Assembly (NCBI GenBank): GCA_016789885.1
Contig: JAEUPZ010000031.1
Coordinates: forward strand, 124,001 to 188,000
Reading direction: 5' to 3'
From: Chromatiales bacterium
GTDB lineage: Bacteria > Pseudomonadota > Gammaproteobacteria > Steroidobacterales > GCA-2729495
Length of the DNA stretch: 64,000 nt
Shown here in pieces: positions 5,069 through 24,868 of this stretch. The notes below the pieces were generated by a model. It was not told the origin of the DNA, did not search any database, and saw only the letters and a program-made list of their open reading frames with translations. The first letter of the stretch is position 1, and each line of letters opens with the position of its first letter. Position numbers and translations under genes: made by a program.

Positions 5069-7852
5069 ATGCGCACCCCAGCCGGCCGCCTGCTCGTCTC
5101 TGCTGTCCTGGTTCTCTGCATCGGTCTGACCGCCTGCGGAGCCTCCAGCCCCGAAGAGCTTCTGGCCGAGGCCCGGCAGGCAGCCGAACAGCGGGACTAC
5201 CGGACGGCTGCCATCCAGCTGAAGGCCCTGCAGCAGAAGGACCCGGACAACCTCGACGCCGCGCTGCTGCTGGCCGACGTCTCTGCTGCCGACAACAATC
5301 CGGATCTCGCCGAGCGCAATTACCGCCGGGCAGCCGAGCTCAAGGCGGAGCCCGCGCGCTACTGGCGGGGCTGGGTCGACTCGCTGCTGGCGCTTGGTCG
5401 GTACGACGACGCCTTGGCCCGCCTCGACGCGTTCACGCCTGCAAACGCGGCCGATGAAGCTGCGGTGCTGGTCCGGCGCTCTCGTGCGTTGCGGGCGCAG
5501 GGCAAGGTGGCCGAGGCCGAGCAGGCTGCCCGTGCGGCCGTGGCCAAGGCGCCTGCCCTGGCTGAGACTCAGGTCGAGCTGGGCGACCTGATGTTCGTCA
5601 CTGGCCGCCGGGAGGAAGCGACCACGGCCACCGAGGCGGCGCTGGCCATCGAGCCCGGGAACCCTGACGCGCTGATGCTGAAGGCCATGCAGCTGCTGGC
5701 CGGTCCCGACCCGGCCGCTGCAGCGCCCGTGCTGGAGCAGGCGCTCGCCGAGGCGGGTGAGGCCGGCGGCAAGTTGCCGCTGCAAGCCACGGCGCTGAAT
5801 TACCTGATCGAACTCGACCTCCTGGCGAAGGAAGTGGACAAGGCGGCCGGGCGTGTGGCCGAGCTGGTGAAGCTGGTCGGGCCATCGCCGCAGGCGCGCT
5901 ACCTGCGAGCCCGGATTGCCGTCGAGCGGAACGACCTCGCCGCGGCCAAGGAAGACCTGCAGGAGGCACTGGCAGCGGCGAAGGATTATCTGCCCGCCCG
6001 CCGGCTGCTTGGCGCCATCAACGTCGTCGAGAACCAGTACGAGCTCGCCGAGATGAACCTGCGCCCCGTGGTGGCTGCCAACCAGGGCGACGTCTACGCG
6101 CGCCGGCTGCTGGCGACTGTGCTGCTGGCCCGCCGGCAGCCCAACGAGGCGCTGTCGCTGCTCGACACGACCTCGGTGGCCGATGGCGAGGCCCGCGAGA
6201 TGATGCTGGCCATGGCCGGCCAGGCCAGCCTGCAGACTGGTGACGTGGCGCGCGCATCCGACTACTTCCGCGAAGGCGCCAGGCAGTTCCCGGAGAACCC
6301 GGCCTTCGAGCTGGGCCTTGCCCTCACGCTGCTCGCCGAAGGTCGCACCGACGAGGCCGAAAAGATCATCCGTGACGTCAAGGGTGAGCAGGCCGACGCG
6401 GCCCGGGCAGCCTTCGACGTGATCCTGCTCATGCAGAAGGGGCAGGTGGACCAGGCGGTCACGGCGGCCCGGGCGGCCGTCGAGAAGTTCCCCGACGTGG
6501 CCTGGTCGAACAACCTGCTGGGCTCGGTGCTGATCGCGGGCGGTGACTTCAAGGGTGCCCGCGAGGCCCTGCTGAAGGCGACCGAGAAGGATCCCAACGA
6601 CGCGTCTTCCCTCGCCAACCTGGCCCGCGTCGAGCAGCTGTTGAGCAATCCGGACGCGGCGGCGGCCACGTGGCGCCGCATCCTGGCGGCCGATCCGACG
6701 AACGCCGACGCCGCCGGGGCGCTGGCGCGTCTCGAGGTGGAGCGGGGCAACCTGCCCGAGGCATTGAAGGTGCTCGAGCCCTTCCGTGGCAAGTACAGCC
6801 GGGCGCAGCTGCTGGTGGCGGCGATCCTTCTCGACCGCGGCGCCGTCGGCGATGCACGCAAGATCGGCGAAGAGGTACTCAAGACGGAGCCGGACAATCC
6901 GGAGGCGCTCAACGTGGTCGGCCTCGCCGAGTTCACGGCCGGCGATCCGCAGTCGGCGGCGGCCCGCTTCCGGCGTGCCATCGAGCTGCAGCCGGGCGTG
7001 CCGATCTACCGCCTGAACCTCGTCCGGGCCCTGCTCGCCGCTGGTGACGCCGCCGGTGCCGAGGCAGCGTTGGCCGAGGTGCGCAAGCTGGCTCCGAATA
7101 CCCCGCAGCTCCTGAGCGTCGAGGCCGCCGTGGCCCTGGCCCAGGGCAAGGCGGCCGACGCCCGCAAGGTCGTCAGCCGCATGGAGGCCGACCAGATCGG
7201 TGACGCCCGCCTGCGGGCTGCCCTCGACGGCGAGGTCCTCGCCGCCGAGGGGAAGCCGGGGGAGGCCAGCCAGCGGTTCGCCGAGGCCTACCGGCTGGGC
7301 CCGAACCTGGACTCGGCCGTACGGGCCTGGGGTGCCGCGCTGGCGGCCGGGCAGAAGCCCGACCCGGCGCTGCTCGATGACTGGCTCAAGCGCAACCCTG
7401 ACGATGTGCGCGCCCAGCGGGTCGCTGGTGACCTGTTTTTCGCCGCCGGCCTGAAGGATCGCGCCCAGCGAAGCTACGAGAGCATCCTCGAGTTCGAGCC
7501 CCGCGACCTGGCGGCGCTGAACAACCTCGCGTGGATCTACCAGGAGAACGGCGACTCACGGGCCCTGCAGCTGGCCGACCGGGCGCTGAAGGTGGCGCCC
7601 GACAACCCGGCCGTGCTGGACACCGCCGGCTGGGCCCAGCTTCGCGTCGGCGACAAGCGGCGGGGTGCCGAGCTCATCGAACAGGCCGCGGCCAAGGCGC
7701 CGGACGATCTCGATATCCAGTACCACCGGGCGGTGGCGCTGATAGATGGCGGCAAGCCGGACGAGGGCCGGGCGGTCCTGGAGACGATCCTGAAGTCGGA
7801 CCGGCCCTTTGCGAGTCGCGACGACGCGGCGGCGAAGCTCAAGCAGCTCTAG
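5069..7852 (+). CDS. prsT: PEP-CTERM system TPR-repeat lipoprotein PrsT
   Basis: The 927-residue protein begins with a lipoprotein signal peptide; the lipobox LTAC places the lipidated cysteine at residue 23. The rest is almost entirely helical TPR repeats of about 34 residues, with repeated patterns such as DPDNLDAALLLADV, EPGNPDALMLKA, DPTNADAAGALARLEVE and APDNPAVLDTAGWAQLRVG. Length, lipobox and position immediately before exosortase A match PrsT (TIGR02917). It should be anchored to a membrane, most likely in the periplasm, as a scaffold for exopolysaccharide or PEP-CTERM protein assembly; its molecular partners are not established. The exosortase gene starts 22 bases downstream, so the two are probably co-transcribed. 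Confidence 0.92.
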   Translation: MRTPAGRLLVSAVLVLCIGLTACGASSPEELLAEARQAAEQRDYRTAAIQLKALQQKDPDNLDAALLLADVSAADNNPDLAERNYRRAAELKAEPARYWRGWVDSLLALGRYDDALARLDAFTPANAADEAAVLVRRSRALRAQGKVAEAEQAARAAVAKAPALAETQVELGDLMFVTGRREEATTATEAALAIEPGNPDALMLKAMQLLAGPDPAAAAPVLEQALAEAGEAGGKLPLQATALNYLIELDLLAKEVDKAAGRVAELVKLVGPSPQARYLRARIAVERNDLAAAKEDLQEALAAAKDYLPARRLLGAINVVENQYELAEMNLRPVVAANQGDVYARRLLATVLLARRQPNEALSLLDTTSVADGEAREMMLAMAGQASLQTGDVARASDYFREGARQFPENPAFELGLALTLLAEGRTDEAEKIIRDVKGEQADAARAAFDVILLMQKGQVDQAVTAARAAVEKFPDVAWSNNLLGSVLIAGGDFKGAREALLKATEKDPNDASSLANLARVEQLLSNPDAAAATWRRILAADPTNADAAGALARLEVERGNLPEALKVLEPFRGKYSRAQLLVAAILLDRGAVGDARKIGEEVLKTEPDNPEALNVVGLAEFTAGDPQSAAARFRRAIELQPGVPIYRLNLVRALLAAGDAAGAEAALAEVRKLAPNTPQLLSVEAAVALAQGKAADARKVVSRMEADQIGDARLRAALDGEVLAAEGKPGEASQRFAEAYRLGPNLDSAVRAWGAALAAGQKPDPALLDDWLKRNPDDVRAQRVAGDLFFAAGLKDRAQRSYESILEFEPRDLAALNNLAWIYQENGDSRALQLADRALKVAPDNPAVLDTAGWAQLRVGDKRRGAELIEQAAAKAPDDLDIQYHRAVALIDGGKPDEGRAVLETILKSDRPFASRDDAAAKLKQL

Positions 7853-7873: not shown

Positions 7874-9403
7874 GTGCGCGACTTGGACGGGGGCAGGGCC
7901 GGTGCGGGCCGAGGCATGTTGCTGGGAGTGGATGCCCGGCTGCCCTTGGCTCTCCTGGGCATTGCGTTGCTGGTGCCGGTGCTGTGGCCGAGCTTCAGCT
8001 CGATGCTTGCCCAGTGGGAGACCAGCACTTACAGCTATGGATACCTGATCGGCCCGGTCGCCCTGTTCCTGTTGTGGCGTGACCGCGCGCGGCTTGCGGC
8101 CGTCAGGCTGCAGCCGGCGATGGTGCCGGTGCTGCTGTCGGTGCCGGTCGCGCTGGGCTGGGCCGTAGCGGTGCTGCTGCGTATCGACGTGGTTCACCAG
8201 CTGGGGGCCGTTGCCCTGCTGCTGCTGCTGGTCTGGTCGCTGCTCGGGACAGCGGCGGTGCGCCAGCTGTGGTTCCCCCTGGCGTATCTGTTCCTGATGG
8301 TCCCCCTCGGCGACTCGCTGATTCCCTACCTGATGGACCTGACGGCGAATGCGACGGTAAGGGCAGTGCAGGCCTCCGGCGTGCCGGTCTACCAGGACGG
8401 GTACGTCTTCAGCCTGCCGAGCGGCAACTTCGAGGTGGTCGAGGCCTGCAGTGGCGTGCGCTTTCTGATGGCCGCCGTCGCGGCCGGGGCGGCGTTCGCC
8501 TATCTGGCGTTCGAGGCCAACTGGAAGCGGATCCTCTTCATCACGGCCTGCGTCCTGGTGGGGATCTTCGGCAATCTGCTCCGGGCCTACAGCGTCGTGA
8601 TGATCGCCCATATCACCGACATGGAGTACGGGCGCAACCACGAGACGTTCGGAATTGTTCTCAACGGTGCCATCCTGCTGCTGTTCTTTCTGGTCGCCTC
8701 CCGCTTTGCCGACGCGCCGGCCGCGCCGGGTTCGATCGATGCCGCGCGGCGTGCAGCGCCCGGGCCCGAGCTGCGTCACTACCTGCCCGCACTGTTGGTT
8801 GCGGTAGTGGTCGGGCTGGCGGGCTGGCTGCCCCAGTCCCTGGTCGCCCGTGCTGGTGAGCCTTCGGCCGACGAACTGCTCAGGGCGTTTCCCGCGGCCG
8901 TTGCAGGCTGGCAGCGTATCGAGACCGACGCAGCGCCCGAGTGGCAGCCGGAGTTTGCAGGCGCGCGTGCCCGACGGGTCGAACGCTTCCGGAGTGCCGA
9001 CGCCCCCGGCACCGATGTCGACCTCGCCATGGCCGACTTCGCCGCACTGGGCGAGGGTGCCGACCTGACCAGCAGTCTGAACCGCATGTTCTCGCCCCCG
9101 TGGAGCCTGCTCGCCGCACGCGAGGCGGGAGCCGGCGAGTCCGCCAGGCGCGAGGCGGCCCTTCAGTCCCCTGACGGTCAGCGGCGGCTTGTCTGGTGGT
9201 GGTATCGCGTGGGTGGGGTCTGGACCGCGAGCGCCGTACAGGCCGAGTGGCTGACCTTGCGCGCGCTGCTGACTGGTAGCATCCCTGTCCGCGAAATCGT
9301 CGCCATCAGTGTGCCGCTCCGTGGGGATCAGGGCACGGCAGCTCGTGCCGCACTGACGGCCTTTGCCCGTGCCGCGGACCTGCCAGGGGCCGCTGTACCC
9401 TAG
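7874..9403 (+). CDS. xrtA: Exosortase A fused to EpsI domain
   Basis: The 509-residue protein has two parts. Residues 20-285 form a polytopic membrane transpeptidase with the exosortase catalytic set: Cys192 in VVEACSGVRFL, Arg237 in NLLRAYSV and His256 in GRNHETFG. Residues from about 310 to the end form a periplasmic EpsI/DUF3485 domain (AVAGWQRIE, WWWYRVGG, ASAVQAEWLTLRALL). Exosortase A recognises C-terminal PEP-CTERM signals and is thought to cleave and attach the protein to a surface anchor. The fusion with EpsI is the usual XrtA form. GTG 7874 has a purine-rich stretch very close upstream; ATG 7916 is an alternative. No PEP-CTERM substrate is encoded in this window. Confidence 0.93.
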   Translation: MRDLDGGRAGAGRGMLLGVDARLPLALLGIALLVPVLWPSFSSMLAQWETSTYSYGYLIGPVALFLLWRDRARLAAVRLQPAMVPVLLSVPVALGWAVAVLLRIDVVHQLGAVALLLLLVWSLLGTAAVRQLWFPLAYLFLMVPLGDSLIPYLMDLTANATVRAVQASGVPVYQDGYVFSLPSGNFEVVEACSGVRFLMAAVAAGAAFAYLAFEANWKRILFITACVLVGIFGNLLRAYSVVMIAHITDMEYGRNHETFGIVLNGAILLLFFLVASRFADAPAAPGSIDAARRAAPGPELRHYLPALLVAVVVGLAGWLPQSLVARAGEPSADELLRAFPAAVAGWQRIETDAAPEWQPEFAGARARRVERFRSADAPGTDVDLAMADFAALGEGADLTSSLNRMFSPPWSLLAAREAGAGESARREAALQSPDGQRRLVWWWYRVGGVWTASAVQAEWLTLRALLTGSIPVREIVAISVPLRGDQGTAARAALTAFARAADLPGAAVP

Positions 9404-9626
9404 GCTCCTCGGCGTTATGTCGAATTGCAGGGCCGTGGGCCGCCCGCGGCATGCCAAGCCAGAGGCAACGGTCAGGGCCGCGGTTGCAGGGGCCGGCGAG
9501 TGCCCCGGCACAAGGCTCCGGCGCGACCCGAGAACTGTGACATAAGTCCCGATTTCAGAAGTGGATGACTACTTCTGTCATGGGGTTGCGCTAGTATCGG
9601 GGCGCTGGGCAGAGAGGGGCGGGGCC
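9404..9626 (+). promoter_or_regulatory. Upstream region of the glycosylphosphotransferase gene with TTATGTC sites
   Basis: This stretch after exosortase A carries TTATGTC at 9415-9421 on the plus strand and again at 9545-9539 on the minus strand, the same element seen before prsT. ATGAC and GTCAT form an inverted repeat at 9565-9569 and 9577-9581. CTGTCAT followed by four bases and TTGC (9575-9589) resembles a sigma-54 -24/-12 element, but the spacer is one base short of the strict spacing. A sigma-70-like TAGTAT sits at 9592-9597. If transcription starts near 9600, the annotated GTG at 9561 would lie upstream of the transcript, and the ATC at 9627 behind GAGAGGGG becomes a candidate start. 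All regulatory assignments here are inference. Confidence 0.4.
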
Positions 9627-11183
9627 ATCAACCGCGAGAACAAGAAATCCGCTGCGCGTCCCGGCATCGCGTGGCATGTACCGGGTCCGGGCTGGTTGCT
9701 GTTCGTCACCGATGCGCTGGTGATCTGCGCGGCGTTCGCGCTCGCCATCATCCTGCGCTACGACCTGGGCTTCCTCACGGCGCGTTCTTCGTACCCGCAG
9801 CTCGCCGTCTGCGCGGGTGTGTTCCTGGCGTGCCAGGCCGTCGGCCTGCTCAGCATGGGGCTCTACCGCTCGCGCCAGCGGCCCACGGTGCGCGACAAGG
9901 TGCTGCGCATCGTCTTCGCGGTGTTCGGCTCGACGATCCTCAATCTGATTCTGGTCTGGCTGTGGCCGCAGCTGGGCCCGTCACCCGACACGCTGGCCAT
10001 TGCCGCGCCGCTGACGGCGCTTGCGGTCGTCGGGCTGCGCACGGTCATGATGCAGTTCATCGACCTGAACCCGATCAAGCGCCGGGTACTGGTCGTCGGC
10101 TCCGGCAAGCTGGCCCACAAGATCCGCCGCCTGCGCCGGCGCGCTGATCGCCGGCGGTTCGAGGTGCTGGGCTTCGTCGCCCTGTCGGATGACGACCGGC
10201 GGGAGGCCGAGCGGCTCGACATCGCGCCCGTGCTTTCGCCCGATGACGCACGGCGGTTGCTGCCGCGGCTCGACGAGGTCGTCGTGGCGCTGGACGACCG
10301 GCGTGGCACGATGCCCCTCGACCTGCTGCTGGACGCGAAGCAGATCGGCGTGCGCATCGCCGACGTCGTGCAGTTCCTCGAGCGCGAGACCGAGCGGCTC
10401 GACCTGGACCTGCTGCGGCCCGGCTGGCTCCTTTACCAGCGCAGCAGCCAGACCAACGCCCTGTACCGGTTCCTCAAGCGCTGCTTCGACGTGGCCTTCA
10501 GCGTCATGCTGCTGACGCTGACGTCGCCGTTCCTGCTGGTCGCGGCCCTGGCCATCCTCGTCGAAGACGGCTTCGACAAGCCGCTGATGTACCGCCAGTC
10601 GCGGGTGGGCCGGCACGGGCAGGTGTTCCAGCTGCTCAAGTTCCGCAGCATGCGCGTCGACGCGGAGCGCGACGGCCCGCAGTGGGCCAAGAAGGACGGC
10701 GACGACCGCGTGACGAGGGTGGGGCGCATCATCCGGCGCTTCCGGCTCGACGAGCTGCCGCAGCTCTGGAACATCCTGCGGGGCGACATGAGCGTGGTCG
10801 GGCCCCGGCCCGAGCGGCCCGAGTTCGTGGCATCGCTGGCCGGTGTGCTGCCCCTCTACAGCTATCGTCACGCGGTGCGGCCGGGACTTGCCGGGTGGGC
10901 CCAGCTGAACTTCCCCTACGGGTCGTCCGTCGAGGACGCCCGCATGAAACTCTCGTATGACCTCTGGTACATCAAGAACACGACGATCATCGACGACCTG
11001 ATGATCCTGCTGCAGACCTGCGAGGTCGTGATCTGGGGCCGGGGCACCAGCATGGCCGGGAGCCCCGACGGCAACCGGGGTGGCTCCGGTGCGCCTCCGC
11101 AGGCCGGTAACCAGTCTGACGCGCCGGCCAGTTCCCTGCCGGGCGGCTCGGTCACTTCGCCCCGAAAGCCGGACGCGGCCTGA
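9561..11183 (+). CDS. Exopolysaccharide polyprenyl glycosylphosphotransferase (EpsB_2 type)
   Basis: This initiates exopolysaccharide synthesis by moving a phosphosugar onto undecaprenyl phosphate at the inner membrane. The N-terminal half has several membrane helices (WLLFVTDALVICAAFALAII onward) and a Rossmann-like segment around RRVLVVGSGKLAHKIRR. The C-terminal catalytic domain has KRCFDVAFSVMLL, the basic/acidic KFRSMRVDAE, FRLDELPQLWNIL and the signature GDMSVVGPRPERPEF. The arrangement matches the PEP-CTERM-associated family TIGR03013. The GTG at 9561 has no ribosome-binding site. No ATG, GTG or TTG occurs in frame before the first membrane helix, while an ATC at 9627 follows a good GAGAGGGG, so the true start is open. 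The last 40 residues are low-complexity. Confidence 0.9.
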   Translation: MDDYFCHGVALVSGRWAERGGAINRENKKSAARPGIAWHVPGPGWLLFVTDALVICAAFALAIILRYDLGFLTARSSYPQLAVCAGVFLACQAVGLLSMGLYRSRQRPTVRDKVLRIVFAVFGSTILNLILVWLWPQLGPSPDTLAIAAPLTALAVVGLRTVMMQFIDLNPIKRRVLVVGSGKLAHKIRRLRRRADRRRFEVLGFVALSDDDRREAERLDIAPVLSPDDARRLLPRLDEVVVALDDRRGTMPLDLLLDAKQIGVRIADVVQFLERETERLDLDLLRPGWLLYQRSSQTNALYRFLKRCFDVAFSVMLLTLTSPFLLVAALAILVEDGFDKPLMYRQSRVGRHGQVFQLLKFRSMRVDAERDGPQWAKKDGDDRVTRVGRIIRRFRLDELPQLWNILRGDMSVVGPRPERPEFVASLAGVLPLYSYRHAVRPGLAGWAQLNFPYGSSVEDARMKLSYDLWYIKNTTIIDDLMILLQTCEVVIWGRGTSMAGSPDGNRGGSGAPPQAGNQSDAPASSLPGGSVTSPRKPDAA

Positions 11184-11346: not shown

Positions 11347-12621
11347 TCAGCCCGCGCCGTCGGCGAGGGTGCGCGTGCGGACGGTGTCGTCCGTCGAGTC
11401 GACCGGCTCGCTGCGGTCGGCGGCCGGCACGGCGGTGACCGGTGGCGCCACCCGCGGCACCTTGGTCCGGTCGACGTAGAACACCACGTCGACCTGGCCG
11501 AAGCTGATGGTGTCGCCGGAGCGGAGCAGGGCCCGCGCGCGCCGCTTCTGGTTGACCAGGATGCCGTTGCGGCTGTTCAGGTCTTCCACCACGTAGATGC
11601 CGCCGATGCAGTCGATCAGCGCGTGGCGGCGGCTCACTTCCTTGTCGATGACGACCAGGTCGTTGGCGTTGCTGCGGCCGATGACGAAGGGAAACGAGCT
11701 GGCCTCGGCCTGCTCCAGCAGCTGCCCGTCGCGATAGACCATCAGCGCTGCGCCACTGCCGGGCGCCTCGCCCTGGGCAGGCCGTGCCGGCTTGCCCGCA
11801 TCGCGCTCCTCGAACCACTGCCAGCGCAGTTCCTGCACCACGCTGTCGAGGGTGTCGACGTCGACCCGGGGGCGGCCCTCGACCATGCAGGCGGTCAGCG
11901 CGGTGTCGCAGAGTGTGTTGATCAGGCGCGGGATGCCGTAGGTGAGGCGGTGGACCTCGATCACGGCGTCGGGCTCGAAAATGTCCTGGACGCGGCCGCC
12001 GGCGACCTCGAGCCGGTGGCCGACGTACTCGATCGTCTCGGCCTCGGTCATGGCGTCGAGCTTCTGGCGCAGCCGCGCGCGCTGGCGCAGCTGGATGAGC
12101 CCCGGCGCGTCGAGCACGTCGTCGAGGTTGGGCTGGCCCGTGAGCACGATGGAGACGATGCGCCGGTCGGAGGTGTCGATGCAGCTCAGCAGCCGCAGCT
12201 CCTCCAGCGCCGACGCCGTGAGGTTCTGGGCCTCGTCGACGATGATGACCACGTGCTTGCCGGCACGGTACTGCTCGAGGAAGAAGCTGCGCAGCGTGTC
12301 GAGCAGCAGCACCTTCTTGCGCTTGTAGATCGGCATGCCGAACTCTGAAAGCAGCGCCTGCAGCAGCTCGATGTCCGAGAGCGTGGTGTGGACCAGCTTG
12401 GCCGTGACGTAGCCCGGCCCCAGCTCCTTTAGGACGGTGTTCAGGATCGTGGTCTTGCCGATGCCGATCTCGCCCGTGACGATCACGAAGCTGTCGCGGT
12501 TCATCAGCGCGAACTTGATGTTGGCGACCGCGCGCGAGTGCTGCGCGGTCATGTACATGAACCGCGGATCGGGATCGAGGTTGAACGGGCGGCAGCTGAG
12601 CTTGAAGTATTGCTCGTACAT
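11347..12621 (-). CDS. XrtA-associated AAA ATPase with C-terminal FHA domain
   Basis: The product has 424 residues. Residues 1-270 are an ExeA/GspA-like AAA ATPase (XrtA-associated type): MYEQYFKLSCRPFNLDPDPR at the start, Walker A GEIGIGKT at 50-57 and Walker B VVIIVDEAQ at about 124-132. Residues from about 300 to 395 form a forkhead-associated domain: FVIGRSNANDLVV, SRRHA, DLNSRNGILVN. FHA domains bind phosphothreonine peptides, so this ATPase may be controlled by Ser/Thr phosphorylation; no such kinase is in the window. The open frame extends upstream to 12846, but the family N-terminus fits ATG 12621. The ATPase family is normally encoded with exosortase A exopolysaccharide genes, as here. 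I do not recall the FHA fusion as a standard feature of it. Confidence 0.85.
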   Translation of the reverse strand: MYEQYFKLSCRPFNLDPDPRFMYMTAQHSRAVANIKFALMNRDSFVIVTGEIGIGKTTILNTVLKELGPGYVTAKLVHTTLSDIELLQALLSEFGMPIYKRKKVLLLDTLRSFFLEQYRAGKHVVIIVDEAQNLTASALEELRLLSCIDTSDRRIVSIVLTGQPNLDDVLDAPGLIQLRQRARLRQKLDAMTEAETIEYVGHRLEVAGGRVQDIFEPDAVIEVHRLTYGIPRLINTLCDTALTACMVEGRPRVDVDTLDSVVQELRWQWFEERDAGKPARPAQGEAPGSGAALMVYRDGQLLEQAEASSFPFVIGRSNANDLVVIDKEVSRRHALIDCIGGIYVVEDLNSRNGILVNQKRRARALLRSGDTISFGQVDVVFYVDRTKVPRVAPPVTAVPAADRSEPVDSTDDTVRTRTLADGAG

Positions 12622-13010: not shown

Positions 13011-14333
13011 TCAGCGGCGCCAGCCCAGCCCCGACCACGTCACCGACAGGAAAAGCCGCCGGTTCTCTTGGTCGAACTGCTGCCCGAAGTTGCCGAAGTC
13101 GCCGAACTGGGCGAAGTCGGTACTGGTGTCGCGGTAGGTGTACAGCGCCCGTACGGTCCAGGTCGGCAGCAGCCGGTAGGCCACCGAGAAATCGCCGGTC
13201 CAGTACTGCTGCTCGAAGCGGTCGAAGTCGCCGATGGTCGACTGGTCGAGGAACACCGCCCCGAAACGGCCGCTGAAGCGCTGCGTGAAGTTGTGGTCGA
13301 CGAAGAACCGGGCCTCGTCCTGGGTGACCTGGCGGCCGTCCGAGCGCGGCACCTGGGTGCGCCCCACGTCGAAGTTCAGCGTGGTCTTCTCCGAGCGCTT
13401 GCGGATGCCGAAATTGCCGAGCAGCGATGATTCGGTTGCGCGGAAGGTGCTGCCTCCCGACGTGACGAGTGCCGAGTTGCGCACGGTTCCCAGTCGCAGG
13501 GTCGCCCGCAGCGTCTGGGTCAGGGTGCGCTCATAGGTGGCGTTGATCCCGTAGTTGTCCGTCTCGTTCTCGATGCGGAACAGCGGAATGTCCGTGCGGT
13601 TGAAGTTGTCGGCGTCGAAGGTCGACGAGTTGACCGCGATCCTGAACTGGTTCTTCTGGTCGAGCGTGTGGGTCAACGACAGTTCGGCACTGGTGGTGTC
13701 GAAGTCGAAGAAACGGATGTTGACCCGGTCGTCGAAGCTGGTGCTCGAGTAGCCGAGCTGCAGCGCCAATGAGTTGCGCGGGCTCAGGTTGTAGCTCAGG
13801 TACGGCGTGACCGACCAGCGCTCCTGCGAGGCGCCGTCGTCCGCCTGCTGGGACGCCCCGCCCGTGATGGGCGGCGGCAGGTTGGGGTCGTCGGGCGTCG
13901 CGCTCTCGACGTTCTGCTGGCGCACCAAGGTGTCAGCGTACTCGGCCGAAAGGCCGGTCTCCAGCCGCCGGAAACGTTGCAGCGCGCTCAGGTCGACGTA
14001 CTGGTCGTTGTTGTTCAGGTCCTTGTTGGACTCGAGGTAGTTCCAGTCGCGGACCCGGGGGGTCACGCGGATCTCGGTATCCGGCGTGCGCCAGGCAGCC
14101 GTCACGCGGGCGTCGACGAATGTGCCCATGGCGTACTCGTTACCGCAGCGGGCACCGGGCGGGTCGCTGTCGCGGCAGTCCCGCAGGTAGCGGGGGTTCG
14201 TCTCGTAGACGGTCCCGGCCTCGACCTTGGGGATCATCTCCCAGGCCGCGCCGGAGGCGAGGCCCGGCAGCAGCGCCAGCAGCGCTGCCGCCCGGGTGGC
14301 CCAGGCCTGCACCGGGCGCGCCTCAGGGGACAA
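13011..14333 (-). CDS. PEP-CTERM system-associated outer membrane beta-barrel protein
   Basis: The 440-residue precursor has a signal peptide (AAALLALLPGLASGAAW, cleavage near residue 29). Amphipathic beta strands with alternating aromatic residues follow to the end, for example NSLALQLGYSSTSF, NQFRIAVNSSTF, WTVRALYTYRDTSTDF and RRLFLSVTWSGLGWRR. Repeat strands and the NYLESNKDLNNNDQYVDLSA segment resemble the TIGR03016 family of outer-membrane proteins found only with exosortase A systems, often beside the export lipoprotein gene as here. It probably forms the outer-membrane part of exopolysaccharide export. Its start overlaps the export gene stop by 11 bases, so the two are co-translated. 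The terminal residue is Arg rather than the usual Phe, so OmpA-like C-terminal recognition by BamA is not obvious. Confidence 0.85.
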   Translation of the reverse strand: MSPEARPVQAWATRAAALLALLPGLASGAAWEMIPKVEAGTVYETNPRYLRDCRDSDPPGARCGNEYAMGTFVDARVTAAWRTPDTEIRVTPRVRDWNYLESNKDLNNNDQYVDLSALQRFRRLETGLSAEYADTLVRQQNVESATPDDPNLPPPITGGASQQADDGASQERWSVTPYLSYNLSPRNSLALQLGYSSTSFDDRVNIRFFDFDTTSAELSLTHTLDQKNQFRIAVNSSTFDADNFNRTDIPLFRIENETDNYGINATYERTLTQTLRATLRLGTVRNSALVTSGGSTFRATESSLLGNFGIRKRSEKTTLNFDVGRTQVPRSDGRQVTQDEARFFVDHNFTQRFSGRFGAVFLDQSTIGDFDRFEQQYWTGDFSVAYRLLPTWTVRALYTYRDTSTDFAQFGDFGNFGQQFDQENRRLFLSVTWSGLGWRR

Positions 14334-14892: not shown

Positions 14893-15163
14893 GGTCGACG
14901 TCCTTCGACGGCCGGGGGCGTTGGGTCACTCTCCGTGCTGCCGTGGCGTGCCCCGGGGGCTCGCCCTGACCATTCGGTAATGGTCTGCAGGCAGACGGGT
15001 CGGGTATAAGTGCCTGTAGTTTACTTAGGTTTTTACCGTGCTGCGACGCTTCTCCCTGTGAGGGTGGTCGCAGAAACGCATCAGCAACCCGGCTACGGTG
15101 GCCGACAGTGACCCGCGCCCCAAGAACGCAGGCATTCCGTGTCGTCGCAGAAGAAGCCGTTCC
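14893..15163. promoter_or_regulatory. Divergent regulatory region with overlapping inverted repeats
   Basis: The region separates the export operon (minus) from the WecA-like gene (plus). GACCATT-CGGT-AATGGTC at 14968-14985 shares its last bases with a second inverted repeat, GTCTGC-AG-GCAGAC, at 14983-14996, so only one can form as a hairpin at a time. An A+T-rich run follows (15006-15037). GG at 15028-15029 and GC at 15040-15041 have the N10 spacing of a sigma-54 core, with GTGC in place of TTGC. Promoters for both directions should be here; none is certain. Confidence 0.4.
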
Positions 15164-16393
15164 ATGCGCCTGATCCTGGCCTTCGCTAGCGTCCTGCTGC
15201 TGACCGCAGCCTGCGTGCCGCTGCTCAGGCGGCTGGCGCCGGCGCTCGGCCTCGTCGACGTGCCGGATGAGCGCAAGCAGCACGCGGCACCGACGCCCCT
15301 CGTCGGTGGCATCGCCATTTTCCTCGGCCTCGGCCTCACGGCCCTGTGGCTGCTGGCTACCGGCTGGCTGGCGCCCAGCCCACCCGTACTGAGCCTGCTG
15401 GTGGGCGGGTCGCTCATGGTGGTCGTTGGCGCCATCGACGATGCCCGCGACCTGTCGCCCGGCATCCGGTTCGCGGCCCAGGCAGCCGCCGCGCTGCTGA
15501 TGATCTTCGGCGGGGGCGTGGTGCTGACCGATCTCGGTGGCATGACTCCGTCGGGCGACACCCTGGCCCTCGGCTGGCTCGCCGCCCCGTTCACGATCTT
15601 CGCGACCATCGGCATCATCAACGCGCTGAACATGTGCGACGGCCTCGACGGCCTGAGTGGCAGCCTGGCCCTCGTGTCTCTCAGCGGCCTGTTCGTCGCG
15701 GCACTCGCCTGGGGCACGCCCCTCACGATCCTGCCGCTGGCCATGCTGGCCGCGGCCGTCGTGGGCTTCCTCGCCTTCAACCTGCGCCTGCCGGGACGCT
15801 CGCGGGCCGCCGTGTTCATGGGCGATGCCGGCAGCATGTTCCTGGGCTTTGCCCTGACCTGGTTCACCGTGTCCATGTCCCAGGGCGAGGACCGGGCGTT
15901 TCCCCCGGCGGCGGCCCTGTGGTTCCTCATGGTGCCGATCTTCGACACGGTCACGATGATGCTGCGGCGGATCCTGCGCGGCCGCTCGCCGTTCTCGCCG
16001 GACCGCGAGCACCTGCACCACGTGTTCCTGCTGGCCGGCTTCAGCGTGAACCAGACCGTGGCCCTCATGGCCGGGCTCAACGCCGTCGGCGGCCTCGTTG
16101 GTCTGGCCGCCGTCTACTTCCAGTGGCCCGAGTTGTGGGTGGCGCTGGGGTTCCTGCTGGCCGGCCTCGGCTACTTCTGGATGATCATGCGGGCCTGGCG
16201 GGTGATGCGCTTCCTGCACCGTTCGATCTGCCGGCGGCGCATCAGCGCCGATCGCCGTCGCTGCGAAAGCCCGGCCTATGCGGGGCCCGAGCGGCGGACC
16301 GGCGTGGACCGGCGGCTCCGCGCCGTCGAGGGGCGCCTGCCCGCAGAGCCCAAGGGCAAGGATTTCGGCACGGGCCTGGCCCGCAGCCGCTGA
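15164..16393 (+). CDS. WecA/MraY-type undecaprenyl-phosphate phosphosugar transferase
   Basis: This is a polytopic inner-membrane enzyme of 409 residues that transfers a sugar-1-phosphate, in WecA N-acetylglucosamine-1-phosphate, from a UDP-sugar to undecaprenyl phosphate. Family motifs are all present: VPDERKQHAAPTPLVGGIAIF, GAIDDARDLSPGIRF (the DD motif), NALNMCDGLDGLSGS, VFMGDAGSMFLGF and the cytoplasmic histidine motif DREHLHHVF. The C-terminal 60 residues are an Arg-rich cytoplasmic tail that is not part of the fold. ATG 15164 after AGAAG fits the family better than an ATG 66 bases upstream. Together with the glycosylphosphotransferase at 9561 it gives the locus two initiating transferases. 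It could serve the exopolysaccharide or another surface glycan. Confidence 0.88.
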   Translation: MRLILAFASVLLLTAACVPLLRRLAPALGLVDVPDERKQHAAPTPLVGGIAIFLGLGLTALWLLATGWLAPSPPVLSLLVGGSLMVVVGAIDDARDLSPGIRFAAQAAAALLMIFGGGVVLTDLGGMTPSGDTLALGWLAAPFTIFATIGIINALNMCDGLDGLSGSLALVSLSGLFVAALAWGTPLTILPLAMLAAAVVGFLAFNLRLPGRSRAAVFMGDAGSMFLGFALTWFTVSMSQGEDRAFPPAAALWFLMVPIFDTVTMMLRRILRGRSPFSPDREHLHHVFLLAGFSVNQTVALMAGLNAVGGLVGLAAVYFQWPELWVALGFLLAGLGYFWMIMRAWRVMRFLHRSICRRRISADRRRCESPAYAGPERRTGVDRRLRAVEGRLPAEPKGKDFGTGLARSR

Positions 16394-16470: not shown

Positions 16471-17163
16471 TCAGCCGTTTCCGCCGGGCATCGGCGCCAG
16501 CCACGCGGCCGTCACGATCAGCTCCGCCGTCACCGCGTAGCCGCCCGCCAGCCGCGCCACGATCGCAAGGTCGGCGGTGGCCTCGGCCGGCTCGAAGCGC
16601 AGGCGCCCGCCTGACCCGGCAGCTACCCGCACCTCCGTGAAGTCGATGAAGCGCCCGACCCGGGTGCGGACGCACTTGTAGACGCTCTCCTTGGCGCTGA
16701 AGACCGTCCGGGGCCAGAGGTCCGGGGGCAGCCCCGGCGGCGCGCTGGCGAGCTCCTCCGGCCGGCACAGGCGCGCCGCGAGGTCGGGCTCCAGGGCGGC
16801 GCGCTCCTCCAGGTCGATCCCCAGGCCCGCCAGTCGGGCCAGCGGTGCTGCAGCGGCCGCTGCCCACTCACCGGCATGGGTGATGCTGCCGCAGGTGCCG
16901 GGGGGCCACAGGGGGCTGCGGTCGGAGGCCACCGGCAGCGCCACCGGTGGCAACCCGAGGGCCGCCAGCGCCTGCCGGGCGCAGGCCCGGCCGGCGGCAA
17001 ACTCCTGGCGTCGGCGCGGCACCATCGACTGCGCCGGACCGGCCTCGGCGGGTAGCAGGGGGGCCAGGCCCGCCACGGCCACGGAGGCCGCGGCCACGGC
17101 GATGCCCGGCGGCAGCAGGGCCGCCAGGGCAGCCTCGATCTCGCTGGCGGCAGGCGCTTGCAT
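16471..17163 (-). CDS. 4'-phosphopantetheinyl transferase, EntD/Sfp superfamily
   Basis: The 230-residue cytosolic enzyme moves phosphopantetheine from CoA to a serine of carrier proteins. Diagnostic residues are in GIDLE (115-119) and FSAKESVYK (155-163), with the EntD-like lead-in FAAGRACARQALAALG and the central GSITHAGEW. The overall length fits the EntD group rather than the short AcpS group. It stands alone between the WecA-like gene and gltX. The exosortase A locus contains an acyl ligase that is expected to need a carrier protein, so this transferase may service that pathway; that link rests on proximity only. The protein is unusually rich in alanine, with a run of eight between residues 101 and 106 and around it. 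Confidence 0.88.
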   Translation of the reverse strand: MQAPAASEIEAALAALLPPGIAVAAASVAVAGLAPLLPAEAGPAQSMVPRRRQEFAAGRACARQALAALGLPPVALPVASDRSPLWPPGTCGSITHAGEWAAAAAAPLARLAGLGIDLEERAALEPDLAARLCRPEELASAPPGLPPDLWPRTVFSAKESVYKCVRTRVGRFIDFTEVRVAAGSGGRLRFEPAEATADLAIVARLAGGYAVTAELIVTAAWLAPMPGGNG

Positions 17164-19087: not shown

Positions 19088-19229
19088 TTCCGCCGGTACC
19101 GCCGGCCCGCTGCGGCGGGCTGCCGGGGCCTTCCGAACTGAGAAGCCGGTGGCGAGTGCCGCCGGGGCCGTCGGGTATGATTTTGTCCACATCCGGCCGC
19201 TTCGGGCCGCGATGCCAGCGGAGGCCACG

Positions 19230-23058: not shown

Positions 23059-23889
23059 ATGGCAGATGGTGGCAAACCGCGGCGGCAGACCCAGGCCGCC
23101 CGCGCCGACCGGCACGTGCTCTACGAGCGTTCCGTGCAGTCCGTCGAACCGGAGTGCGACTTCATCCGCAGCACGTTCAAGTCGCTGAGGGGGCGCGAGC
23201 CCCGGGTGCTGCGCGAGGATTTCTGCGGGACGTCGGCCATCTCCTGCCACTGGGTGGGCCGGTCGCGCGCGAACCGCGCCATCGGCGTCGACCTCGACCC
23301 CGAGGTACTCGCCTGGGCCCGGGAGCACCGCCTGGCGAAGCTCTCGGCCGGTGAGCGCGGCCGCCTGCACCTGATCGAGGGCAACGTGCTGTCGGTCGCA
23401 GGTGACGGCGCCGGCGGGCGCGTCGACGCCGTCGGTGCCTTCAATTTCAGCTACTGGGTGTTCAAGACCCGGGCGCTGATGCGCCGGTACTTCAGCGGGG
23501 TACGCCGGTCGCTGGCCCGCGACGGCGTGTTCTTCCTCGACGCCTTCGGCGGCTACGACGCCTACCGGGTGATGCGCGAGACCACCGCCCACCGCGGCTT
23601 CACCTACGTGTGGGACCAGGCGCATTACTCGCCGGTCACCGGCGACCTGCGCTGCCACATCCACTTCCGCTTCGCCGACGGGTCGAAGCTGCAGCAGGCC
23701 TTCACCTACGAGTGGCGCCTGTGGTCGCTGCCCGAGATCCGCGAGCTGCTGGCCGAGGCGGGCTTCCGGCGCAGCACGGTGTACTGGGAAGGCACGGCCC
23801 CCAATGGCCGCGGCAACGGCGAGTTCTCGGCCGAGGCCGTGGGCGAGGCGGACGCCGGCTGGGTGGCCTACATCGTTGCCGAGGCCTGA
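23059..23889 (+). CDS. Class I SAM-dependent methyltransferase, substrate unknown
   Basis: The 276-residue protein has the Rossmann-like methyltransferase pattern. LREDFCGTSAIS stands in for motif I, IGVDLDPEVLAWA is the acidic motif II that binds the SAM ribose, and RVDAVGAFNFSYWVFKTRA lies in the motif IV position. The REDFCGTS form is that of a bacterial group usually annotated only as class I methyltransferases. There is no signal peptide or membrane segment. An AGGGAGGTAGCTG ribosome site supports ATG 23059. The methyl acceptor is unknown; position after dusA might suggest RNA, but nothing in the sequence shows an RNA-binding domain. Confidence 0.75.
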   Translation: MADGGKPRRQTQAARADRHVLYERSVQSVEPECDFIRSTFKSLRGREPRVLREDFCGTSAISCHWVGRSRANRAIGVDLDPEVLAWAREHRLAKLSAGERGRLHLIEGNVLSVAGDGAGGRVDAVGAFNFSYWVFKTRALMRRYFSGVRRSLARDGVFFLDAFGGYDAYRVMRETTAHRGFTYVWDQAHYSPVTGDLRCHIHFRFADGSKLQQAFTYEWRLWSLPEIRELLAEAGFRRSTVYWEGTAPNGRGNGEFSAEAVGEADAGWVAYIVAEA

Positions 23890-23917
23890 CCGCGGCAGGT
23901 CACCCTCGTCAATCGCA

Positions 23918-23923
23918 TATACT
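23918..23923 (+). promoter_or_regulatory. Candidate -10 for the cyclase-FHA gene
   Basis: TATACT lies 33 bases before the GTG start in a short A+T-rich patch that interrupts GC-rich sequence. No good -35 precedes it. Confidence 0.35.
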
Positions 23924-23956
23924 GGCCGCGCTTTACATATTCCCCGGGCACCCCAC

Positions 23957-24868
23957 GTGGCTGCAGGCGCCGAGCAAAAAGTCGCCATCCTGTTCGCCGA
24001 CATCGTGGGCAGCACGCAGCTGTACGAGTCGCTCGGCGACGAGGCGGCCAGCGACGCCGTGCAGTCCTGCCTCAAGATCATGCGCCAAGCCACTGAAAGT
24101 TATGGTGGCACGGTGGTCAAGACCGTTGGCGACGAGGTCATGTCCGTGTTCCCGTCGGCCGACGACGCCCTGAACGCGGCCAACGAGATGCAGCAGCGCA
24201 TCACCAACGTCATGCGCGTCGGCCAGGCCCGCATCCCGGTCTCGATCCGCATCGGCTGCCACTACGGCTCCGTCGTCGCCGAGGAGCGCGACATCTTCGG
24301 TGCCGCCGTCCACACGGCCAACCGCATGACGTCCCAGGCCAAGGCCGGCCAGGTGCTCACCACCGCGGCGCTGGTGGAGGAGCTGACGCCCCAGTGGCGC
24401 AGCCTGGCCCGCCAGATCGACGTGGCGACCCCGCGCGGCCAGAGCGACGAGGTGGCCGTGTTCGAGGTGCTGTGGCAGCCGGACGAGGCCACCAGCATGC
24501 ACCCGGCCGTCGATCCCGCGGCCGTCGCCGACACCCGGTCCGGGCGGCTGCGCCTGCGCTTCCGGGGCGAGGAGGTGGTGGTCGGCGAGGCCGGCCGGCC
24601 CACGATCACCATGGGCCGGGCCGACGAGAACGACATCGTCGTCAAGGGCAACCTGATCTCCCGCATCCACGCCCGCGTCGACTGCGCGAAGCGGCGCTTC
24701 GTGCTCGTCGACGAAAGCACGAACGGCACGTTCATCCAGCGGGACGGTGGCGAGGAGATCTACGTGCGCCGGGACAGCGCGGAGCTGACCGGATCGGGGA
24801 TCATCAGCCTCGGGCGGGTCGCGGCGCGGGGCACGCCGCTCGCCATCGAGTTCAGCGTCGAGGAGTGA
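23957..24868 (+). CDS. Class III adenylate/guanylate cyclase domain fused to FHA
   Basis: The protein has 303 residues from GTG 23957. Residues 8-175 form a class III nucleotide cyclase domain with metal aspartates in ILFADIVGST (Asp15) and VKTVGDEVM (Asp59). The usual V-N-x-A-x-R segment reads VHTANRM, so the transition-state asparagine position holds histidine while the arginine remains. Activity is therefore uncertain. Residues 200-300 are an FHA domain (ITMGRADENDIVV, SRIHARV, DESTNGTFI). There is no membrane segment, so it is cytosolic. The pairing suggests a nucleotide signal gated by a phosphothreonine partner. The exosortase-locus ATPase at 11347 also ends in an FHA domain. Confidence 0.82.
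   Translation: MAAGAEQKVAILFADIVGSTQLYESLGDEAASDAVQSCLKIMRQATESYGGTVVKTVGDEVMSVFPSADDALNAANEMQQRITNVMRVGQARIPVSIRIGCHYGSVVAEERDIFGAAVHTANRMTSQAKAGQVLTTAALVEELTPQWRSLARQIDVATPRGQSDEVAVFEVLWQPDEATSMHPAVDPAAVADTRSGRLRLRFRGEEVVVGEAGRPTITMGRADENDIVVKGNLISRIHARVDCAKRRFVLVDESTNGTFIQRDGGEEIYVRRDSAELTGSGIISLGRVAARGTPLAIEFSVEE

Follow-up and report, generated by a model that had tools for sequence, protein, structure and literature searches.

ExeA and GspA of type II secretion consist of an AAA_22 core followed by a C-terminal accessory domain, and the ExeA-ExeB pair is described as necessary for assembly of the secretin (PMC4098917). An ExeA-like AAA+ core is likewise found in the TIGR03015 ATPases of XrtA exopolysaccharide (EPS) loci, whose genes usually lie between those for TIGR03016 and TIGR03006. 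In a different set of proteins, DgcB, GarA and OdhI, an FHA domain is flanked by a tail containing a conserved threonine, and the neighbouring FHA domain binds this threonine of the protein's own tail (PMC6733907).

The protein analysed here has features of all these systems. It is encoded in a 64,000-nucleotide stretch of DNA from a Chromatiales bacterium (the window), and has the core of ExeA and GspA, but ends in an FHA domain and a tail where those end in a peptidoglycan-binding domain. As in GarA, OdhI and DgcB, its FHA domain adjoins a tail with a conserved threonine, and the FHA parts of GarA and OdhI align with its own. Here, however, the tail is C-terminal, the effector is an AAA+ ATPase, the flanking residues differ, and the tail phosphosite is only a candidate; the hydrophobic +3 residue stressed for DgcB is missing. 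Within the set of papers searched, there was no prior description joining exosortase or PEP-CTERM with FHA domains, no mention of TIGR03015, and none of ExeA together with an FHA domain and ATPase.

The AAA-FHA gene and its surroundings

The gene is a minus-strand open reading frame with its ATG at 12621 and its stop codon at 11347-11349 (Table 1). The first-pass annotation had given exactly this span, without a strand, and had described the ATPase as extended by a complete FHA domain. The FHA domain is confirmed, at the C-terminal end: the sequences GRSNANDL, SRRHA and NSRNGILVN are all found, and the Pfam FHA model is matched in full (model positions 2-67/67, residues 313-375, E 6.4e-18, 65.4 bits). 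The Pfam model Yop-YscD_cpl also matches, at 45.9 bits against a cutoff of 33.2, and no peptidoglycan-binding domain was found in the Pfam scan. The Walker A motif GEIGIGKTT occupies residues 50-58 and the Walker B motif VVIIVDEAQ residues 124-132, the tested Walker residues being unchanged across 20 of 20 relatives. Because the same architecture recurs in relatives at 60-78% identity, it is not a product of chance, and the gene is real and well conserved. An AlphaFold prediction of the full protein, made with 10 close relatives, reached a mean pLDDT of 55.6, with the FHA part mostly below 50, a quality too low for structural interpretation.

Table 1. Features of the EPS locus and of the AAA-FHA gene, in window coordinates
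Feature	Position	Strand	Basis or remark
PrsT, TPR lipoprotein of the XrtA system	5069..7852	+	TIGR02917, 490 bits
Exosortase A fused to an EpsI domain	7874..9403	+	TIGR03109, 262 bits (cutoff 208)
TIGR03013 EPS sugar transferase (EpsB), convergent neighbour of the AAA-FHA gene	9561..11183	+	NCBIfam; adjacent in most relatives
AAA-FHA ATPase gene, ExeA-like AAA+ (424 residues)	11347..12621	-	ORF, Pfam and NCBIfam
Tail motif D411-D-T413-V-R-T-R417, candidate phospho-acceptor threonine	11371..11391	-	Conserved pattern
FHA domain, residues 291-382 (Pfam core 313-375), with R316, S330, R331, H333 and N352	11476..11751	-	Pfam FHA
AAA_22 ATPase domain, residues 42-170	12112..12498	-	Pfam, E 4.6e-24
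Outer-membrane beta-barrel-like EPS protein, upstream same-strand neighbour of the AAA-FHA gene	13011..14333	-	Synteny
Polysaccharide export protein (Poly_export and SLBB), second EpsA-like copy of the genome	14323..14892	-	
WecA/MraY-type undecaprenyl-phosphate sugar transferase	15098..16393	+	
Nucleotide cyclase with FHA domain (second FHA protein)	23804..24868	+	Guanylate_cyc and FHA (model positions 1-48/67)

The surroundings of the gene are a genuine XrtA/PEP-CTERM EPS locus. PrsT, XrtA with its EpsI domain, TIGR03013, TIGR03098, TIGR03099 and a PrsR-type regulator, the last encoded at 19149, all score over their NCBIfam cutoffs. The order is TIGR03099/TIGR03098, PrsT, XrtA-EpsI, TIGR03013, AAA-FHA, the barrel-like protein, the EpsA-like protein and the WecA-like transferase. 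Neither NCBIfam nor Pfam matches the barrel-like protein itself; its homologue in one relative (L016) gives a weak TIGR03016 match (E 1.8e-9, below cutoff). Matches to the sigma-54 promoter pattern were fewer than expected by chance.

Two further observations concern the export genes. One is a phosphopantetheinyl transferase gene (16471-17163), which most of the relatives read retain in the EPS module, although such a gene would not be expected among those for polysaccharide export. The other is that EpsA-like export proteins are encoded twice in the genome, in the window and, about 25 kb away, at positions 9704-10363 of locus L163. The TIGR03027 cutoff is exceeded by the L163 copy alone, so the window copy and its own barrel may belong to a second export route.

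Relation to the canonical XrtA ATPases

The gene had been taken for an XrtA-associated ATPase extended by an FHA domain. The TIGR03015 model does align over the whole length of the protein, but with 263.7 bits it stays under the cutoff of 324.5. Of 398 genomes sampled from the phylum, 36 had a TIGR03015 match over cutoff, and none of the best 30 of these 36 carries an FHA domain. In tblastn with the window protein, the ATPase part alone aligned. No over-cutoff TIGR03015 protein was found in any of 40 genomes of the window's family.

An IQ-TREE phylogeny of 85 ATPase domains united the 29 canonical TIGR03015 rows in a single clade (support 100/99) with the window protein outside. The clade of the window protein (99/97) contains AAA-FHA proteins together with ATPases that lack FHA and are encoded in XrtA operons of other Gammaproteobacteria. 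Topologies joining the window clade with the canonical proteins (p-AU 0.0019) or with FHA-less XrtA-operon ATPases of other families (p-AU 0.0016) were rejected, and a single origin of all FHA-bearing proteins by one AAA-FHA fusion was not (p-AU 0.21); these values are indicative, as the groups were named partly after the tree had been seen. The second rejection speaks equally against an EPS location inherited from FHA-less XrtA-operon ATPases. Judged by its sequence, the AAA-FHA protein is thus a member of a lineage separate from the textbook XrtA ATPase, and differs from the latter also in its added FHA domain and tail motif and in lying outside the usual operon slot. An FHA domain in nearly all members of the TIGR03015 family would have made the fusion a known trait; as surveyed, it is ordinary for the AAA-FHA lineage and absent from the canonical TIGR03015 ATPases examined.

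Distribution of AAA-FHA genes and association with the EPS module

At E<=1e-60 the window protein has a match in 293 of the 396 genomes sampled from its order, and the matches listed span the FHA domain. Across the wider class, most matches end around residue 250-305, short of the FHA core, and full-length matches are found in only about 18 sampled genomes. AAA-FHA proteins of other families in the order have the identical domain order, about 42% identity and an intact FHA pocket, but mostly lack the threonine motif of the tail. Outside the window's family, the AAA-FHA loci read lie mostly away from EPS genes: in three of them (L060, L063 and L072) the gene stands by the housekeeping genes purK, purE, DarP, tldD/pmbA and BrkB, elsewhere ABC transporter or Crp-type genes are nearby, and no conserved partner gene was recognised in the loci read.

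In the window's family, the gene has the TIGR03013 transferase on one side and the barrel/EpsA pair on the other, often with an inserted UDP-glucose dehydrogenase-like gene, and the WecA-like, phosphopantetheinyl transferase and gltX genes then follow. The barrel/EpsA pair stands beside it in 16 relatives, with the transferase on the other side in most. Barrel and EpsA adjoin the gene in all loci of the EPS-linked clade with enough flank, except in G830 (a single contig, 95% complete), where it lies beside a different EpsA/chain-length/tyrosine-kinase set. One genus of the family includes four genomes (G794, G919, G925 and G368) that encode a more distant AAA-FHA protein outside EPS genes. Use of an AAA-FHA protein in the EPS/XrtA locus is a family-level variant.

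The proposal that the gene follows the exosortase found no support. G830 has no exosortase at E 1e-20, in G812 the exosortases lie about 0.9 Mb from the AAA-FHA gene, and XrtA over cutoff occurs in 8 of 40 family genomes, against more than 20 with the AAA-FHA gene. An exosortase nearby is therefore not needed, and the gene tracks the EPS module. Of the suggested tie to exopolysaccharide or sorting machinery, the first half is supported by this location; the second is weak, the gene being kept in a family genome in which no exosortase was detected and, in most genomes of the family, not lying near one. One relative (L177, on G836:C34) has over-cutoff XrtA and PrsT without an AAA-FHA match at E 1e-60.

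The ATPase slot of the XrtA operon

A standard XrtA operon (L163) is present in the genome about 18 kb from the AAA-FHA gene, upstream of the window. It encodes EpsA (TIGR03027), a chain-length determinant, a tyrosine kinase, a TIGR03016 barrel and a deacetylase (TIGR03006), with about 10 bases separating the barrel and deacetylase genes. In four loci of other families (L073, L075, L077 and L078) a TIGR03015-like ATPase is encoded at this point, and in the window's family it is missing from eight of eight operons read (L022, L024, L163, L166, L168, L169, L182 and L185). This empty slot suggests that in the window's family the AAA-FHA protein probably substitutes for the usual XrtA-operon ATPase. 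Other TIGR03015-like ATPases are present in most family genomes and could serve the operon; the window's genome has two such candidates, one on contig C29 and one, GspA-like with a peptidoglycan-binding domain, on C8. The first belongs to a second EPS-type cluster (L079 13806-17471, G000 contig C29), in which a chain-length determinant and a tyrosine kinase accompany the FHA-less TIGR03015-like ATPase.

The FHA pocket and the tail threonine

The phosphate-contacting residues of the window FHA domain are R316, S330 and N352. Among 54 AAA-FHA proteins, R316, S330, H333, S350 and G353 are kept in all 54, N352 in 53 and R331 in 47; the possibility that the phosphate-binding arginine and serine are non-functional thus receives no support from conservation. 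Mean pairwise identity in the EPS-linked clade is 86% for the FHA core and 80% for the ATPase core, with 15% for the linker and 21% for the tail. The retained pocket residues, and an FHA core as conserved as the ATPase core, argue for a functional phosphothreonine pocket. Rv1747, OdhI, GarA and EmbR are among the nearest FHA sequences with solved structures.

Within the variable tail, 11-27 residues from the protein end, a short motif recurs, which in the window protein reads DDTVRTR (T413). The pattern [DE][DEQHPS]T[AGVS][RQKET] is present in 17 of 18 non-redundant clade tails, with a mean of 0.55 and a maximum of 4 after shuffling, figures that overstate its significance since it was fitted by eye to tails already seen and the tails are related. 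Three further clade members, L135 and L136, with the motif, and L140, without it, were left out of this count as their FHA end misfits the parsing pattern. The motif is rare elsewhere, with 1 occurrence among 44 FHA-less relatives and 3 among 22 AAA-FHA proteins from outside the clade. It is a new observation, specific to the EPS-linked clade, and the conservation of one threonine in a tail that otherwise cannot be aligned is hard to explain without function.

Kinases and other FHA proteins of the genome

A search of the genome for Ser/Thr kinases, as the first-pass annotation had advised, gave five Pkinase matches over cutoff (two on contig C21 and one each on C14, C7 and C22), beside six FHA matches. 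Several such kinases occur in each of 40/40 family genomes, which makes their co-occurrence with the AAA-FHA gene uninformative, and no kinase gene linked to the AAA-FHA locus was found. The tyrosine autokinase of the locus would not be expected to act as a partner of the FHA domain. On contig C14, a Ser/Thr kinase and an FHA domain encoded within 2 kb (G000:C14:27220-29156) may form a kinase-FHA signalling island and are a candidate kinase source.

The second FHA protein of the window, reported with a cyclase domain, is real. It is syntenic in four relatives (L170, L171, L172 and L175; 62-76% identity), within a conserved block of PrsR, GalE, Dus, methyltransferase, cyclase-FHA and PEPCK genes. 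Because this block includes housekeeping genes, its synteny leaves the idea of a phospho-signalling layer shared by the two FHA proteins unproven.

Proposed mechanism and alternatives

The observed architecture, lineage, synteny, empty operon slot, intact FHA pocket and conserved tail threonine are, taken as a whole, best explained by a kinase-controlled self-switch on an EPS-export ATPase, to which we give a probability of roughly 0.45. Within the EPS export module of the XrtA system, the AAA-FHA ATPase would stand in for the absent TIGR03015 ATPase and use ATP to drive the assembly or gating of a trans-envelope export machinery, a role proposed on the model of ExeA/GspA and secretin assembly; the link of an ExeA-like ATPase to EPS export comes from gene neighbourhood only. 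A Hanks-type Ser/Thr kinase would phosphorylate T413 in the C-terminal tail, the FHA domain would then bind the phosphorylated tail, either within the same subunit or on an adjacent one, and this capture would change oligomerisation, ATPase activity or access of partners. The kinase action, the self-binding, the direction of the switch and the role in envelope assembly are the steps that we infer.

Most FHA domains bind partners in trans, and the domain could instead read phosphothreonine on another protein and recruit the ATPase there, the tail threonine being a separate site or part of another binding motif. A kinase, the tyrosine-autokinase/chain-length complex or another member of the FHA network are candidate ligands, and the kinases and FHA proteins of the genome offer several. 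In AAA-FHA proteins outside the clade the tail motif is mostly absent and the pocket intact, which points to another ligand in those proteins. Recruitment in trans nevertheless leaves a tail threonine specific to the EPS-linked clade without a reason, and we consider it unlikely, though the most serious competitor of the self-switch. Less probable still is a phospho-independent assembly module resembling the FHA-like cytoplasmic domain of YscD in type III secretion: the Yop-YscD_cpl match over cutoff fits such a role, but the FHA model scores higher, and a pure scaffold would not need R316, S330 and N352, kept in 53-54 of 54 proteins. The initial model, in which a canonical XrtA/TIGR03015 ATPase gained an FHA domain in the window's lineage, draws on the locus position and the full-length TIGR03015 match; with the score below cutoff and both groupings rejected by the tree, it is largely refuted and retains very little probability.

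The self-switch thus remains the preferred reading. Its fullest form, a self-phosphopeptide switch in an AAA+ motor, with an EPS-export ATPase toggled by Hanks-type kinases and the standard XrtA ATPase displaced family-wide, is put forward tentatively, with the odds against all of it holding together. T413 and R316 provide single-residue handles on the switch, and the natural replacement of an ATPase without an FHA domain by one with it offers a way to ask what the poorly understood XrtA-associated ATPase does. If the reading is true, the surface-polysaccharide export ATPase of this bacterial group would be under direct Ser/Thr-kinase control, beside the usual tyrosine autokinase.
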